A DNA stretch of 43,904 nucleotides from an uncultured Synergistales bacterium. GTDB lineage: Bacteria; Synergistota; Synergistia; Synergistales; Aminobacteriaceae. The stretch is taken from NCBI GenBank assembly GCA_905235735.1, contig CAJOMU010000016.1, positions 1-43,904 of the forward strand. The letters are read 5' to 3'. Positions 7,003-23,575 of this stretch are shown here, one piece after another (the first letter of the stretch is position 1; each line of letters starts with the position of its first letter). Both the position numbers and the translations under genes were made by a program. Under the pieces are notes generated by a model. That model saw only the letters and a program-made list of their open reading frames with translations, was not told the DNA's origin and did no database searches.

Positions 7003-7617
7003 TCATGTCAGCGGGATTTTCACTTCAAGAAATTCATCAGGCAAATCTTCAGAGTATACCCCGATAACATAATCATCAATAAAGAAATTCCTTCCTGAAA
7101 TATTTTCGCAGTTTACGTTCCGCATCACATTCATCAAATCCATTCCCGTACACTTCATGTAACTTTCTTTGAGTGTCCAGTAACACATAAATTTTCTCAT
7201 AAAGTCTTCTTCGTTCATGCTTCCAAGAATCATTTTCTCTTCATGAGTGAAGAAGTGATTTGCAATATTATGATTTGCTCTGGTCAATTTTTCGACATCA
7301 ACACCATTAGGTTTATCTCCGACTGAGAGTACTGCATATTCTCCGCTATGAGAGATGCTGAATTCAAGATTATGTTCTGATGATATGTATGGTTTTCCGT
7401 TCTGGTCTCTGAATATGTGAATTGATTCTATATTCGTGTCAGTCTTCAATGCGATTACATGACGAGCAAGGAGTTCAGCCCATAAAGTTCTGTTCTGGTC
7501 GGATAAGTTTTTATAGCGAAGAATTTTCTCTCTGCGTTCAGGTGTGAAGAGGCATAGATAATCATCTACTGTTTTATGAAGTTTATCTTTTAGATTCAGC
7601 ACATATAGTTCAGTCAT
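7003..7617 (-). CDS. 4'-phosphopantetheinyl transferase, Sfp type
   Basis: A 204-residue enzyme that moves the phosphopantetheine arm of CoA to a serine of an acyl or peptidyl carrier protein. Motifs: FSISHSG (86-92), GVDVE with the magnesium-binding Asp and Glu (105-109), and WTLKESYMK (147-155) with catalytic Lys/Glu. Length suits the Sfp/AcpT-like superfamily rather than the short AcpS form. No carrier protein or NRPS/PKS gene lies nearby, so the partner is unknown. A copy of its first 36 codons has been duplicated at 9955-10061. It is divergent from the gene at 7713. Confidence 0.88.
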   Translation of the reverse strand: MTELYVLNLKDKLHKTVDDYLCLFTPERREKILRYKNLSDQNRTLWAELLARHVIALKTDTNIESIHIFRDQNGKPYISSEHNLEFSISHSGEYAVLSVGDKPNGVDVEKLTRANHNIANHFFTHEEKMILGSMNEEDFMRKFMCYWTLKESYMKCTGMDLMNVMRNVNCENISGRNFFIDDYVIGVYSEDLPDEFLEVKIPLT

Positions 7618-12755: not shown

Positions 12756-12983
12756 CTATGCGACCTTTTCGTAGTCAACAATGATTACTTCCTGCATTAA
12801 CTGCTTCACGTTCTTCATGATATTCTCGATTCGTAATGCAACATCGCCAGTGTAAAAAATTTCATCGCACTCTCTGCACTTGTAACACGGAATCTTCCTG
12901 ATAACTAATAACCCGCAATCCATTTCTATGGCTTCAGTTGTCGTACTTCTATATGAATCTTTGCCGCATCGCATACACTTCAT
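12756..12983 (-). CDS. YgiT-type zinc-finger antitoxin
   Basis: A 75-residue protein with two CxxC pairs (MKCMRCGKDSY and KIPCYKCRECDEIFY), which is the MqsA/YgiT N-terminal zinc finger, followed by a short helical tail. There is no C-terminal HTH domain of MqsA. Proteins of this size commonly follow a DUF4258 gene as the antitoxin, and here its start overlaps the stop of that gene by four bases (12980-12983). It ends before the terminator at 12704-12732. Role by family and context; not shown for this pair. Confidence 0.78.
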   Translation of the reverse strand: MKCMRCGKDSYRSTTTEAIEMDCGLLVIRKIPCYKCRECDEIFYTGDVALRIENIMKNVKQLMQEVIIVDYEKVA

Positions 12984-13297
12984 GATTCTTTCTCCTTTCG
13001 TGTTTTGAAATCATTCTCCCACGTTGTATTATCTGGAACATAAGCCGTTATGACATATATCATTCCTTCATTTATACTCGCTACAACGTGTATTATTCTG
13101 TCTTCTGAATGCCCCATGATAAGACAGCTCGGAAATGGGAAATCATCAGGATATTGTTCAATAATTTCACCTGTATCAATAGCAGCGCAGACATCTAATA
13201 TTGAGATTCCACGCTCATAGAATCTCTTTCGGCTGTGTTGAGTGATTATGATTGTCTCAAGTCGATTTAATGCCCTGAAATCTTCTATCAGCATCAA
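12980..13297 (-). CDS. DUF4258 protein, probable toxin
   Basis: About 104 residues with the DUF4258 pattern: HSRKRFYERGISILDVCAAI, then an IEQYPDDFPFPSCLIMG strand, HVVASI and VITAYVPD. This fold is related to RelE/BrnT-like RNase toxins, so an mRNA-cutting toxin paired with the overlapping zinc-finger antitoxin is likely. The start is TTG 13297 or ATG 13294, both directly behind the uvrA stop (13298-13300); the ribosome site AAGGAGG is inside the last uvrA codons. It therefore depends on uvrA transcription, unless a promoter lies inside uvrA. Confidence 0.75.
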   Translation of the reverse strand: MMLIEDFRALNRLETIIITQHSRKRFYERGISILDVCAAIDTGEIIEQYPDDFPFPSCLIMGHSEDRIIHVVASINEGMIYVITAYVPDNTTWENDFKTRKEKES

Positions 13298-16280: not shown

Positions 16281-16628
16281 ATGGTCAGCAAGAAATTTCT
16301 CGAAGCCGTATCAAATGATTCAGCGTTAAAGGCGGAACTCGAACATGCAACACTCGCGGCACTTGGTGAGTTCCTGAAGTCGAAAGGTCTTGATGAGGAA
16401 GCCGGAAAAATCGCAGAGGCGGCAATGACGAAGGTAGCAGAGGCTCACGGCTTCATGGCTGACGAAATGGAAGCACTCAGCGATGACAAACTCAAAGCTG
16501 TCGCAGGTGGAGTGTGCGCTTGTCCTTTTGCAGGCGGCGGTACAGGAAACGGCAGACAGTGCGGTTGTTTCTTTTACGGTAAGGGGAAGGGGTACGAGTG
16601 TATTATCATCGGCGCTATTTCAGAATAA
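16281..16628 (+). CDS. Nif11-type RiPP precursor peptide 1 (divergent core)
   Basis: 115 residues: a Nif11-like helical leader of about 77 residues (MVSKKFLEAVSNDSALKAEL at the start), ending LKAVAGG, the double-glycine cleavage site, then a 38-residue core. The core has cysteines at 2, 4, 17, 19 and 30 and the glycine block GGGTGNG between the first two CxC pairs. Unlike peptides 2 and 3 it has lost the third CxC (YECIII) and the acidic GxDD tail, so it may be a drifting copy or a distinct product. ATG 16281 is chosen because it aligns with the other precursors; GAGGT lies ten bases upstream. A longer frame to TTG 16251 is less likely. Confidence 0.82.
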   Translation: MVSKKFLEAVSNDSALKAELEHATLAALGEFLKSKGLDEEAGKIAEAAMTKVAEAHGFMADEMEALSDDKLKAVAGGVCACPFAGGGTGNGRQCGCFFYGKGKGYECIIIGAISE

Positions 16629-16661
16629 AGGATAATTTCAAACAAAAAGGAGAAAATTAAA

Positions 16662-17030
16662 ATGACAGTCAGCAAGAAATTTCTCGAAGCCGCATCAAAG
16701 GATTCAGCGTTAAAGGCGGAACTCGAACAGGCAACACTCGAAGCACTTGGTGAGTTCCTGAAGTCGAAAGGTCTTGAAGCAGAGGCCGGAAAAATCGCAG
16801 ATGCGGCAATGACGAAGGTAGCAGAGGCTCACGGTTTCAAAGCTGACGAAATGGAAGAACTCAGCGAGGACGAACTCAAAGCTGTTGCTGGTGGAAAATG
16901 TGCTTGTCCTGTTGTAGGCGGCGGAACTGGCACAGGCAAACAGTGCGGTTGTGTCTTGGGCGGCAAAGGCCATAATAACAGCGGTCAGGGCTGTGTGTGT
17001 TTCGTTGGCGGCGGCGGCATTGATGATTAG
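16662..17030 (+). CDS. Nif11-type RiPP precursor peptide 2
   Basis: 122 residues: leader of 78 residues (MTVSKKFLEAASKDSALKAE at the start) ending ELKAVAGG, then a 44-residue core. Core positions: CAC at 2-4, Pro5, GGGTGTG at 8-14, CGC at 17-19, CVC at 33-35, and a VGGGGIDD tail. The leader is nearly identical to that of peptide 3 down to the codons, so the genes arose by recent tandem duplication (period about 408 bases). AAAAAGGAGAAAA precedes the ATG. The Nif11 leader is a docking domain for modifying enzymes and the radical SAM gene downstream is the obvious partner. Confidence 0.86.
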   Translation: MTVSKKFLEAASKDSALKAELEQATLEALGEFLKSKGLEAEAGKIADAAMTKVAEAHGFKADEMEELSEDELKAVAGGKCACPVVGGGTGTGKQCGCVLGGKGHNNSGQGCVCFVGGGGIDD

Positions 17031-17069
17031 CCCCAGCCAGATAGTTCGGAAGAAAAGGAGAAAATAAAA

Positions 17070-17438
17070 ATGACAGTCAGCAAAAAATTTCTTGAAGCAG
17101 CATCAAAGGATTCAGCGTTAAAGGCGGAACTCGAACAGGCAACCCTCGCGGCACTTGGTGAGTTCCTGAAGTCGAAAGGTCTTGAAGCAGAGGCCGCAAA
17201 AATCACAGAGGCAGCAATGACGAAGGTAGCAGAGGCTCACGGGTTCAAAGCTGACGAAATGGAAGACATCAGCGGTGACGAACTCGAAGCTGTTGCAGGC
17301 GGATGGTGCGGTTGTCCTGTTGTAGGCGGCGGAACAGGAACAGGCAAACAGTGCGCTTGTGTCGGGTACGGAACAGGCACGAATGACAGCTTGAAAGACT
17401 GTTTTTGTTTGGTGGGCGGTGAGGGCGAGGATGATTAA
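17070..17438 (+). CDS. Nif11-type RiPP precursor peptide 3
   Basis: 122 residues with the same plan as peptide 2: leader ending ELEAVAGG, core of 44 residues with CGC at 2-4, GGGTGTG at 8-14, CAC at 17-19, CFC at 33-35 and a VGGEGEDD tail. Cysteine spacing is exactly that of peptide 2, while other core positions differ (Lys1 to Trp1, CVLGGKGHNN to CVGYGTGTND), the pattern expected when cysteines are the sites of modification. It has the same AAAAGGAGAAAATAAAAA ribosome region and lies 53 bases before the maturase gene. Confidence 0.86.
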   Translation: MTVSKKFLEAASKDSALKAELEQATLAALGEFLKSKGLEAEAAKITEAAMTKVAEAHGFKADEMEDISGDELEAVAGGWCGCPVVGGGTGTGKQCACVGYGTGTNDSLKDCFCLVGGEGEDD

Positions 17439-17491
17439 CCCAGTCAGACAATTTAATTAGAAAAGGAGAAAATAAAAAGGAGCAAAGATAA

Positions 17492-18922
17492 ATGTATTAC
17501 AGGCTGAAGGATAATTTCGTTCTTCGAGGCTACGAAAAACTTCCCTATGCGCTGGTTAACTTGAATAACGGTTATGCGGAATTTCTCAATGCTGAAGCGA
17601 TGAGTGCTGTTCAGCTCTGCGACGGAAGCGTTGATTTATCCATGCCGTTTATTCCTGAAAGCGTCCGTGAGTTCATACGTACACTCGAAGAACATAATGT
17701 GATAGAACAGTGCGAAGCCGATCATGGTCTGACAGAGAAGCAGAAATACAGAAAGTACCCTGTGCGCTATATCCGTCAGGCTCACTGGTCAATCACAGGA
17801 AAGTGTAATTACAGGTGCAGGCATTGTTACATGTTCGCCCCTGATGCGAAACTCGGCGAACTTTCCCATGAGACTATCATGAATATCATTCAGCAGCTAT
17901 CCGACTGCGGAGTTTTCAGCGTCTCTCTTACCGGCGGAGAACCTTTAGTGCGGAGTGATTTCCTTGAGATTGTTGATGCACTTCTTGAACGTGATATTTT
18001 CGTTAAGGAAATATATTCCAACGGTGCATTAGTCAATGAGAAATTGCTTCGAGAACTTGATGCAAGAGGTATTCATCCGAAATTTGACATGAGTTATGAC
18101 GGTGAAGGCTGGCATGACTGGTTACGCGGTGTAAAGGGAGCAGAAGAAACAGTGAACCGTGCGTTTGCGTTGTGCCGAGATATGGGATTCTCGACAGGCT
18201 CCGAGATGTGTCTGCACCAGTATAACAAGCATACTCTCAGGGCGAGCGTAAAGCATTTAGGCTCATTAGGAGTACGTTCAGTGAAGACGAATCCAGTTTC
18301 GGACGTAGGAGCGTGGCATGAAAACGGTTACGGAGAATCAATCGGCATGAAGGAACTATATCAGCTCTATCTAGATTATATTCCGCAGTACTATGAGGAC
18401 GGTATGCCTATGGGAATTATGCTCGGAGGATTCTTCATGGCCAGTCCGGACGAACCTGAACGTTTTTATATTCCGAGCTATAAGCCAGTCTGCGAACCTT
18501 CAACGATGTGTATGTGCGGACATGCGAGACATGTGATGTATATTTCGCCAGAGAGCAGGACGTTGCCGTGTCTTTCGTTATCAGGAATGGCGATACAGGA
18601 AAAATATCCGCTGATAACGGACGTGGGGCTTGCGAAGTGCATAACAGATTCGGCGTACATGAAGCTTATAGACACAAGAGCGAGTGAATATTTTGCGCTT
18701 CATGAGGATTGCAGGGAGTGCAGATATTCATTGAGGTGTTACGGAGGGTGCAGGGCTGATGCACTGGGTGCAGATGAGACTGATATAATGGGAAAATCTC
18801 CGGGAGCTTGTGAACTTTATCGGGGAGGCTGGGTTGATAAGATAATCAAAACGGTGAAAGAATTCGTTCCCAACGTGAAATCAAGTGTGCTTGATGATCC
18901 GTTGTGGCAGGAATTAAAATAA
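17492..18922 (+). CDS. Radical SAM/SPASM maturase for the Nif11-leader peptides
   Basis: 476 residues. Residues 1-80 resemble a PqqD-like leader-recognition domain (YYRLKDNFVLRGYEKLPYAL, then a short winged-helix-like part). The radical SAM core has C105-x3-C109-x2-C112 (CNYRCRHCYMF) for the SAM cluster and TGGEP at 147-151. The C terminus is a SPASM domain for auxiliary clusters: Cys334, 340, 342, 360 and the block C407-x2-C410-x5-C416-x3-C420, then Cys440. This architecture occurs in maturases forming thioether (sactipeptide, ranthipeptide) or C-C links. With three CxC-bearing precursors just upstream, thioether or other cysteine-centred chemistry is inferred. ATG 17492 has a clear AAGGAG; a second AAGGAG 14 bases earlier looks like the relic of a lost precursor. 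Confidence 0.9.
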   Translation: MYYRLKDNFVLRGYEKLPYALVNLNNGYAEFLNAEAMSAVQLCDGSVDLSMPFIPESVREFIRTLEEHNVIEQCEADHGLTEKQKYRKYPVRYIRQAHWSITGKCNYRCRHCYMFAPDAKLGELSHETIMNIIQQLSDCGVFSVSLTGGEPLVRSDFLEIVDALLERDIFVKEIYSNGALVNEKLLRELDARGIHPKFDMSYDGEGWHDWLRGVKGAEETVNRAFALCRDMGFSTGSEMCLHQYNKHTLRASVKHLGSLGVRSVKTNPVSDVGAWHENGYGESIGMKELYQLYLDYIPQYYEDGMPMGIMLGGFFMASPDEPERFYIPSYKPVCEPSTMCMCGHARHVMYISPESRTLPCLSLSGMAIQEKYPLITDVGLAKCITDSAYMKLIDTRASEYFALHEDCRECRYSLRCYGGCRADALGADETDIMGKSPGACELYRGGWVDKIIKTVKEFVPNVKSSVLDDPLWQELK

Positions 18923-21082: not shown

Positions 21083-23575
21083 TTATCCTTTTACGACAAT
21101 ATTCACTAACTTATCAGGAACAGTTATTACCTTCACGACTTCATGACCCGTAAGCCTGTCCTGAATCATCTTCTCTGACATTATGCTTCTCTCAAGTTCT
21201 GACTTCTCCATTCCCGCAGGACGTTCAAACTTTCCGCGTACCTTTCCGTTAATCTGCGCGACAATCGTTACGCTGTCCTTCACGAGTGATTCATCATCCG
21301 CACTTGGCCATGCCTCAAGACAAAGCATATTCTGATGTCCGAGCATCTGCCATAATTCCTCTGTAATGTGAGGGCAGAAAGGCGATAAGCAGTTCAGCAA
21401 TACATCAACGGCCTCACGCTTTAATGTCCATGAATCAGCACTCGAATCATTCAGAGAATAAACGGCATTAACGAGTTCCATTAATCTGGCTATGGCTGTG
21501 TTGAACTGTTTCTCATCGTAAATGTCGTGCGTAACATCCCGAATAGTCGTGTGAATCTTCCTCTTCAGCTCACGAAGTTTTGCATCCTTAATCGCGTTCA
21601 TCGGAATAATTTTATTTCCGTGTGCCTTGAGTGCCTCTGCGTTATCCTCAATATATCTCCATACTCGATTCAGGAATCTATGTGCACCTTCAACGTTTCT
21701 GTCAGACCACTCTAAATCATTGTTGGGTGGTGCGGCAAATAATATAAACAGTCTGATTGTATCTGCTCCGTATTTCTTCACCATTTCTGTCGGGTCTACC
21801 GTGTTTCCGAGTGATTTCGACATCTTTGCTCCGTCTTTAATCACCATTCCCTGAGTTAGTAATCTCGTAAATGGCTCTCTGTATTTCGTAAGTCCTATAT
21901 CAGTCAGGAACTTTGCGAAGAACCTTGCGTATATCAGGTGAAGACATGCGTGTTCAATTCCTCCGATGTACTGGTCAACGGGCATCCAGTAATCAACATC
22001 TGATTTCTCGAACGGTGCTTTGTCATCTCCTGGTGAACAATATCTATCGAAGTACCATGACGAACAGAAGAACGTATCCATAGTATCAGCTTCACGTCTT
22101 GCAGGGCCTCCGCAATGAGGGCATGTAGTGTTCAGGAATTCGGGAAGGTCGAGCAATGGTGAATGTCCAACTTCTTTTACCTCCACGTCTTCAGGAAGTC
22201 TCACGGGCAATTGGTCTTCAGGGACGGGAACAACTCCGCACTTGTCGCAGTATACAAATGGAATCGGAGTTCCCCAGTATCTTTGACGGGAGATGAGCCA
22301 GTCTCGTAACTTGAAGTTCACCTCACGCTTGCAGATGTGCTCTTTCTCTCCCCAATCTATCATGGCTTTGATTGCGTCCTCTGTCTTCATTCCGTTGAAC
22401 TGTTCAGAGTTGCAAACGATTCCGTCTTCCTCGAATGCATGTGTCATCGTTGAGCCGTCAAGAACAGTACCGTCTGAAGGATTAATCACGGGGATAATCG
22501 GAATATCATACTTGCGGCAGAAATCGAAGTCTCTCTGATCGTGTGCAGGTACTCCCATGATTGCGCCTGTACCATAATCGATGAGAATATAATTCGCAAT
22601 CCATATCGGAATCTTCTTGCCTGTTACTGGATGAATACCATAGAACGGAGTCTTGAATCCGAGTTTTTCTGCTCCTGCATCAGAACGTTCAATTGAAGAC
22701 TGAGAACTCACAAGACTAACGAACTCTGAAAGTTTCTGTGCATCTTCAGCATTCATTGAATCTTTCATGCGTTTCACGAGTTCATGTTCGGGTGCTAATG
22801 CTATGAATGTGATTCCGTACACCGTATCGAAACGTGTCGTGAATGCTTCAAGCTCATAATTCAGTTCTGGAATCTTGAACGATAACCTTGCACCTTCTGA
22901 ACGTCCTATCCAGTTCGTTTGCATTATGCGTACACGTCGAGGCCATCCGCCTAAATCTTTTTCTATGTCATCAAGCAATTCCTGTGCATAATCCGTTATC
23001 TTTATGAACCATTGCTTTAAATTCTTTTTCGTTACGGGTGTTCCGCATCTCCAGCAGCCGCCTTCTACTACTTGTTCATTCGCTAATACTGTTCCGCATG
23101 TACTGCACCAATTCACTGGGGCTTCTTTCTGAAAGACTATACCCTTCTTGTACATTTGAAGGAATATCCATTGATTCCATTTGTAATATTCGGGAAGGCA
23201 GGTTATAGCTTCGCGTCGCCAGTCGTAACTATATCCCATGCGCTTTAATTGTTCAGTCATGTATGCGATGTTCGAGAGTGTCCAATCATGCGGACGTGTT
23301 TTATACTTAATTGCGGCATTTTCAGCGGGCATTCCGAATGAATCGAATCCTATTGTGTATAATACATTCTTTCCGTTCTTGCGTAAGAATCGTGCGAGTA
23401 CATCACCGATTGAATAATTTCTGATATGTCCCATATGAAGAGCACCTGAAGGATAAGGGAACATTTCGAGACAGAAGAACTTTTCCTTTGAGGGATCGGT
23501 GTGAGATTCAAAGCAATGTGATTCGTTCCATCGAGATTGCCATTTTTGTTCTATGTTTGCGAAATCATAAGGCAT
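21083..23575 (-). CDS. leuS: Leucyl-tRNA synthetase
   Basis: 830 residues, the normal length for bacterial LeuRS, charging tRNA-Leu. It starts [16 protein letters not shown]; the HIGH motif is in [19 protein letters not shown], followed by [14 protein letters not shown]; the CP1 editing domain is present ([20 protein letters not shown] and [12 protein letters not shown], with the tRNA-editing Asp); the KMSKS motif is [15 protein letters not shown], and the anticodon-binding and C-terminal domains are complete ([13 protein letters not shown]). CAAAGGAGG precedes the ATG. A minus-strand TATAAT at 23610-23615 is a likely -10 box. Confidence 0.97.

Follow-up and report, generated by a model that had tools for sequence, protein, structure and literature searches.

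A Nif11-leader RiPP cluster from a Synergistales bacterium and a proposed family of triple mini-hairpin, sactipeptide-like peptides

The Nif11 leader family, its link to NHLM transporters, and sactionine chemistry are already known. Haft et al. (2010; PMC2887384) tied N11P precursors to TOMM and LanM enzymes, with radical S-adenosylmethionine (SAM) enzymes unmentioned. Ruminococcin C2 carries the thioethers Cys22–Asn35 and Cys24–Glu31: the CxC donors are nested, and the inner bonds form first (PMC8172795). Streptosactin (GggA/GggB) contains a short-range C-alpha thioether, Cys31–Gly34, so glycine can serve as an acceptor (PMC8172795). The subject here is a gene cluster in a 43,904-nucleotide contig (the window) of an uncultured Synergistales bacterium (genome G000), comprising three short precursors, P1, P2, and P3, and one radical SAM/SPASM maturase. 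We propose, with a probability of roughly 0.6, that these genes form a Nif11-leader cluster for sactipeptide-like RiPPs (ribosomally synthesized and post-translationally modified peptides), built as triple mini-hairpins with nested glycine sactionines and released by NHLM-type export. Within this proposal we infer the bond chemistry, the bond order, export in trans, and the activity.

The precursors

A first-pass annotation of the window, made from its letters, had listed three precursor genes and one maturase gene; all four open reading frames lie where it placed them, on the forward strand (Table 1). The P1–P3 leaders are acidic, about 77 residues long, and end in VAGG, as that annotation had read all three; the cores span about 37–44 residues. 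Its description of three precursors with CxC triplets is right for P2 and P3, whose core cysteines fall at positions 2/4, 17/19, and 33/35 by direct reading, as it had noted. It is wrong for P1, whose core, VCACPFAGGGTGNGRQCGCFFYGKGKGYECIIIGAISE, has a single Cys in addition to two CxC pairs.

The Nif11 label had also been attached to these leaders. Homologous CxC precursors pass the cut-off of the Nif11 leader model TIGR03798 (43.0, 42.2, 39.1, 67.5, and 50.0 bits), whereas the window leaders fall below it (16.8–20.9 bits; curated cut-off 32.3) and below that of PF07862 (15–18 bits; cut-off 23.8). The assignment of the window leaders therefore rests on homology. No SCIFF-type precursor match was found among the profile results for the window and homologous precursors.

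A nine-residue unit

To define the conserved element, 201 CxC units from 68 precursors at 38 loci were assembled, and positions 4–12 after each CxC were scored. Gly occupies position 7 in 95% of units and position 9 in 95%; the figures for positions 6 and 8 are 40% and 41%. Both G7 and G9 are Gly in 184/201 units. When the non-Cys residues were permuted inside each core (2000 tries), the mean was 15.3 and the maximum 32. After redundant cores had been removed at a ceiling of 50% identity, the double glycine persists in 96 of 103 units (shuffle mean 7.5, maximum 18). A plain "CxC motif" was superseded by CxCxxxGxG once these positions had been scored. The motif put forward at first pass, CxC around a GGGTGxG block, gives way likewise: the GGGTG stretch is simply how unit 1 reads in this clade.

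All eight CxC units of the window match CxCxxxGxG exactly. Exceptions to the unit mostly have a four-residue loop ahead of GxG, or an overlapping CxCxC. An alignment of 42 precursors (mean identity 26%) has as its invariant columns the GG cleavage site and the unit Cys and Gly residues only. Exactly three complete units are present in 56/67 precursors. Five further loci that were not used to define the unit (L172, L175, L176, L177, and L181) agree: every CxC unit keeps GxG, after a loop of three or four residues. The first-pass annotation had named homologues without conserved cysteines as a ground for rejection; homologous precursors retain them.

The remaining positions (4–6, 8, and 10–12) are variable, with no acidic or other fixed acceptor. 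The earlier suggestion of a bridge from each CxC to the next residue block is probably right, the block being the GxG after each CxC. Because glycine has no beta carbon, a thioether on it must be at C-alpha, that is, a sactionine.

Nested or parallel pairs

Which cysteine would meet which glycine is suggested by the residues that disappear together. Of the 193 units that have C1, 188 also have G9; of the 14 that lack C1, 3 do (odds ratio 138; p 2.6e-12 by Fisher's test, with no correction for kinship). Where C1 is lost, G9 is lost and C3 and G7 are kept in 11 of 14 units, P1 included. Loss of C1 and G9 with C3 and G7 retained is seen in the third unit of P1, three L105 paralogues, L108/L110, and L112. 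In the degenerate middle unit of L177, IGCAMYGGA, C1 and G9 are missing together. Because the loss of C1 goes with that of G9 and spares C3 and G7, the sequences favour nested pairs (C1–G9 outer, C3–G7 inner) over parallel ones.

Parallel pairing would join C1 to G7 and C3 to G9, each bond spanning i to i+6, and the rings would interlock instead of nesting. The constant 2:2 spacing is equally compatible with both pairings. However, this arrangement predicts that units without C1 lose G7 and keep G9, the opposite of what 11 of the 14 do (with the caveat that the units were anchored on G7). Moreover, known multi-bridge sactipeptides are nested, streptosactin with its separate rings being the exception (PMC8172795). 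Parallel pairing is therefore unlikely.

The same losses bear on a metal site, an alternative already raised at first pass. Here the thiols would be free or oxidized and bind Zn, Cu, or Fe–S, the glycines would allow tight turns, and the modification made by the radical SAM enzyme would be a different one. CxC pairs and Gly-rich turns are indeed common in metal sites, and 43 of 67 precursors have six thiols per core. But a metal site leaves unexplained both the joint loss of C1 and G9 with C3 and G7 retained and the units in which a single Cys is followed at i+4 by a single Gly (P1, L105, and L108). Conserved His or acidic ligands are missing, and all precursor sets adjoin a radical SAM/SPASM maturase (which is also how they were sought). 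With the C1/G9 covariation and the solitary C-x-x-x-G units speaking against it, a metal site appears improbable.

The maturase

The maturase matches the radical SAM profile PF04055 well above cut-off (63.3 versus 29.5 bits), and the three CxxxCxxC cysteines, C105, C109, and C112, are invariant. It also contains the seven-Cys SPASM motif CX9-15GX4C-gap-CX2CX5CX3C-gap-C, with Ser355 in place of the consensus Gly; the SPASM profile PF13186 remains below cut-off (13.2 versus 21.5). In the predicted structure (mean confidence, pLDDT, 93.2), the amino terminus forms, with high confidence, strands within residues 2–31, helices 34–41 and 56–67, and a strand at 71–74. This modelled strand–helix region looks like a RiPP recognition element (RRE). 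No Pfam or NCBIfam RRE match was shown for it, the RRE domain not having been searched alone. Taken together, the PF04055 score, the seven SPASM cysteines, and the RRE-like model region support the original assignment of a radical SAM and SPASM maturase, probably with a PqqD-like RRE, in a RiPP cluster.

The enzyme belongs to no NCBIfam equivalog: the best, ScmE, scores 92 bits where 400 are required, and none listed comes near. Membership in a characterized family, which the first-pass annotation had held out as a reason to abandon its reading, was thus not found. Sactisynthase families are related, but the maturase is a non-member (StsB, 78.4 versus 625; AlbA, 49.7 versus 850). The nearest solved relative is SkfB, both by sequence (E 3.4e-19, 71.9 bits) and by fold (Z 27.2; root-mean-square deviation 4.8 over 351 residues; model residues 7–434, the RRE-like region within). 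A defence role was considered and rejected: the PADLOC pVip match (49.7 bits, residues 98–190) is the shared radical SAM core.

These affinities also bear on ranthipeptide-type chemistry, in which C-beta or C-gamma thioethers would reach variable residues within the loop or beyond it and the glycines would be conformational only. Thioether formation is known or proposed for the related SPASM enzymes PapB and CteB, and the maturase of locus L096 scores 58.9 bits to PapB (below the cut-off of 340). PapB is absent from the 25 best NCBIfam matches of the window maturase, and SkfB is closer in sequence than CteB (30.3 bits). Such chemistry would, moreover, need acceptors at loop and downstream positions that vary freely, and glycine offers no C-beta. 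Ranthipeptide-type bonds are very improbable.

A model for maturation and export

In the nested model, one RRE/radical SAM/SPASM enzyme would modify all three Nif11-like precursors. The helical leader would be bound by the RRE-like region, and C-alpha hydrogen would be abstracted at G7, then G9. Sulfur would link C3 to G7 (inner, i to i+4) and C1 to G9 (outer, i to i+8). Each unit would thereby become a small, doubly stapled, beta-hairpin-like loop, its donors (i and i+2) on one arm facing acceptors two residues apart on the other. Because Gly acceptors carry C-alpha only, sactionines are proposed throughout: six in P2 and in P3, from three tandem units (predicted −12 Da), and five in P1 (predicted −10 Da). 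Cleavage after GG and export by an NHLM-type C39 ATP-binding cassette (ABC) transporter pair, here on another contig, would then release a Gly-rich, stapled product about 40 residues long, probably with an antibacterial or signalling role.

Export in trans is suggested by the distribution of transporters. NHLM-like ABC exporters occur in 24/38 CxC loci, several with a short HlyD-like protein, and the L096 pair passes the curated cut-offs (TIGR03796, 934.8/853.3; TIGR03797, 723.5/709.4). A transporter search of the window found no relevant exporter or protease. The sole Peptidase_C39 of the genome is on contig 25, in a C39-peptidase ABC gene that has a partner; this pair scores slightly under the NHLM cut-offs (845.9/853.3 for TIGR03796; 679.6/709.4 for TIGR03797). 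The contig 25 pair would thus be the candidate for cleavage and export. Its distance from the cluster may reflect either loss of a local copy or a long-standing separation.

Several observations weigh against the model. In five units (L106, L108, L109, and L110), C1 is retained but position 9 is A, N, A, A, or H, so that other acceptors would be required. Three units without C1 retain G9; at L176, the orthologue of L177, the middle unit likewise lacks C1 and keeps G9. The covariation units were anchored on C3/G7, shared ancestry is uncorrected, paralogues are not independent, and some single-Cys units are perhaps chance. AlphaFold, run on the precursor alignment in search of hairpins, was uninformative: core pLDDT was below 50, giving no confident model of the core, and the leader helices were only modestly predicted. 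Other enzymes whose reactions differ (anSME, ChlB, SuiB, and CteB) are also fold matches (Z 24–26), close enough behind SkfB that fold alone does not fix the reaction. (An open-access literature search for ChlB gave no result.) Finally, the cores beside distant-clade maturases show different Cys patterns or are nearly free of Cys (L178 and L179).

At the two last-named loci, which lie in other members of the order, Nif11-like precursors accompany a maturase of the same family, and to judge from these cores their chemistry is likely different. With some cores reduced to C-x-x-x-G and others almost free of Cys, the maturase superfamily is chemically broader than the proposal, and not uniformly thioether-forming. 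This lends something to a further alternative: another backbone or side-chain change (epimerization, or C–C or C–N bonds), with the cysteines forming disulfides later. Some members, on the evidence of the nearly Cys-free cores, do other chemistry or bridge other residues. In the CxC clades, however, only Cys and Gly are conserved, and Gly cannot be epimerized. A disulfide inside CxC would require joint loss of C1 and C3, which is not seen. For the CxC clades such chemistry has a small likelihood.

Relatives and distribution

Sactionine-bridged CxCxxxGxG units may define a modular RiPP family, usually with three nine-residue, doubly stapled hairpins and one maturase, the inner C-x-x-x-G being the minimal form, spread over several gut phyla; we consider this wider claim an even bet. 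By itself, the inner C-x-x-x-G makes up the third P1 unit, and it is also found singly in cores from related clades.

In a first survey, close full-length maturase relatives were found in 12 of 37 genomes of the genus, the window's genome counted, and 19/188 genomes of the phylum passed a strict threshold. One scan of named genomes yielded 79 loci, in goat and deer Synergistaceae metagenome-assembled genomes (MAGs), Lachnospiraceae, Oscillospiraceae, Erysipelotrichaceae, Atopobiaceae, Coriobacteriales, Selenomonas, Mailhella, and Treponema. Maturase relatives adjoining CxC precursors make up about 37 loci (Synergistaceae, Lachnospiraceae, Oscillospiraceae, Atopobiaceae, Coriobacteriales, and Mailhella). 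Prevalence beyond the genus is low: 7/299 genomes for the family to which strain D16-51 belongs, and 8/300 for that of L080.

A tree built from 99 maturases places the nine from Synergistaceae that accompany CxC cores on a single branch (SH-aLRT support 97), which nests in a Synergistaceae group whose remaining members show other Cys patterns. CxC cores reappear across the Firmicutes and Actinomycetota parts of the tree. Some "other" core labels were missed precursors (CxC cores were later found at L083, L099, and L118), so the tree count of core-type changes was not used.

Related maturases at L123, L128, L131, L132, and L136 stand beside cores with solitary C-x-x-x-G units, for example MSCGVIGASQVGESCFIAGQN; judged by sequence, these are possibly a minimal form of the same bridge. 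The window genome contains three more maturase paralogues (54, 47, and 30% identity), at C17:117570, C14:14163, and C19:53811 (L037, L038, and L039). Nif11-like cores beside the C14 and C19 maturases have other Cys patterns, such as VECKHGWFKGECDSWFAGRCDSLFD, and the G012 orthologue of the C17 locus has the core IYNCTGAVSHLVCDIVTW. Several core chemistries thus appear to be run by one enzyme family within one species. In the related Synergistaceae MAGs G005, G024, and G033, several maturase genes are broken by frameshifts or stops (L056, L048, L060, L061, and L062), through decay or assembly errors.

Features of the locus

Table 1. Features of the precursor–maturase cluster (window coordinates)
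Feature	Position	Strand	Remarks
P1 precursor	16281..16628	+	115 aa; Nif11-like leader, VAGG, two complete CxC-x3-GxG units and a degenerate third
P1 unit 1, CACPFAGGG	16515..16541	+	from sequence
P1 unit 2, CGCFFYGKG	16560..16586	+	from sequence
P1 degenerate unit 3, YECIIIGAI	16593..16619	+	C3/G7 retained, C1/G9 gone
P2 precursor	16662..17030	+	122 aa; three complete CxC-x3-GxG units
P2 unit 1, CACPVVGGG	16899..16925	+	from sequence
P2 unit 2, CGCVLGGKG	16944..16970	+	from sequence
P2 unit 3, CVCFVGGGG	16992..17018	+	from sequence
P3 precursor	17070..17438	+	122 aa; three complete CxC-x3-GxG units
P3 unit 1, CGCPVVGGG	17307..17333	+	from sequence
P3 unit 2, CACVGYGTG	17352..17378	+	from sequence
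P3 unit 3, CFCLVGGEG	17400..17426	+	from sequence
Maturase	17492..18922	+	476 aa; RRE-like N terminus followed by radical SAM barrel and SPASM domain
Maturase RRE-like region, residues ~1-75	17492..17716	+	model secondary structure; SkfB alignment from residue 7
Radical SAM CNYRCRHC (C105, C109, C112)	17804..17827	+	invariant in 23 homologues
SPASM Cys C342, C360, C407, C410, C416, C420, C440	18515..18811	+	invariant in 23 Synergistaceae sequences

P3 has an almost identical orthologue in G012 (L040 2179-2565). The cluster is flanked on the 5' side by an excinuclease UvrA-like gene and on the 3' side by unrelated housekeeping genes, including a leucyl-tRNA synthetase-like gene at 21083-23575; all of these lie on the opposite strand, and both named genes were named from their translations. 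A promoter and terminator scan of the cluster gave no signal usefully above the shuffled background, and a search for plasmid carriage gave no match at E 1e-30.

Other small loci were seen. At a contig end of the same genome (C21:28708-29927; L154), four Nif11-like precursors lie in tandem, of which three have short clusters of Cys at the C terminus (VCSGCGC, CTKCNC, and CTGCVCKW); no maturase lies within the 5 kb examined. Near a CxC cluster at L043 (10315-10512), a 65-aa peptide combines a GG site with a core resembling a C2H2 zinc finger (PF00096, sub-threshold at 21.1 bits). On the reverse strand of the window are a DUF4258 protein (81 bits) beside a 75-aa protein with two CxxC pairs (12756-13297), which looks like a small toxin–antitoxin-type pair, and an Sfp-type 4'-phosphopantetheinyl transferase (7003-7617) with no evident biosynthetic cluster around it.

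Comparison with known systems

A Nif11/CxC/GxG radical SAM family was not found described in the open-access literature, a weak negative, as most subscription journals fall outside it. The combination and the CxCxxxGxG rule are apparently undescribed, and widespread in gut bacteria. If the proposal is true, a nine-residue cassette sets two thioether staples while loop positions 2, 4–6, and 8 vary freely. This would provide a natural modular scaffold along with a clean sactisynthase substrate rule; known sactipeptides, whose acceptors vary, are without one. It would also allow a direct test of one enzyme's choice among nested acceptors. Gut and rumen bacteria would then hold a largely unmined peptide repertoire: the window genome alone has four maturase paralogues, with different core types.

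The N11P/NHLM clusters share with the present one the leader family, to judge from homologous precursors, and the NHLM transporter association seen at related loci (PMC2887384). Spliceotides likewise pair Nif11-type leaders (Nif11/NHLP) with a radical SAM enzyme, PlpX (PMC11002830). PlpX, however, excises tyramine at Xaa-Tyr-Gly, which is not a conserved feature of the window cores. SkfB, the closest solved relative, joins an RRE and a radical SAM domain to a C-terminal auxiliary-cluster domain (PMC6231123), a layout that the window maturase, with its RRE-like region, appears to share. The C-terminal domain of SkfB is a Twitch domain with one auxiliary cluster, whereas the window maturase has seven SPASM cysteines; identity in the structural alignment is about 16%. 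Streptosactin resembles the proposed products in its Gly acceptor, and its StsB family is among the better matches of the window maturase. It differs in its unnested rings, its 14-residue product, and its lack of a Nif11 leader and of CxC.

Ruminococcin C (RumC/RumMC) offers the nearest parallel to the proposed bonds: C-x-C donors in one hairpin form nested C-alpha thioethers, several precursors occur per cluster in gut Firmicutes, and each peptide has more than one hairpin (PMC8172795). In RumC, Asn, Ala/Glu, Lys, and Arg act as acceptors, at i+7 to i+20, in two hairpins. The window peptides, in contrast, would use Gly acceptors at i+4 and i+8 in three small units, behind a Nif11 leader.

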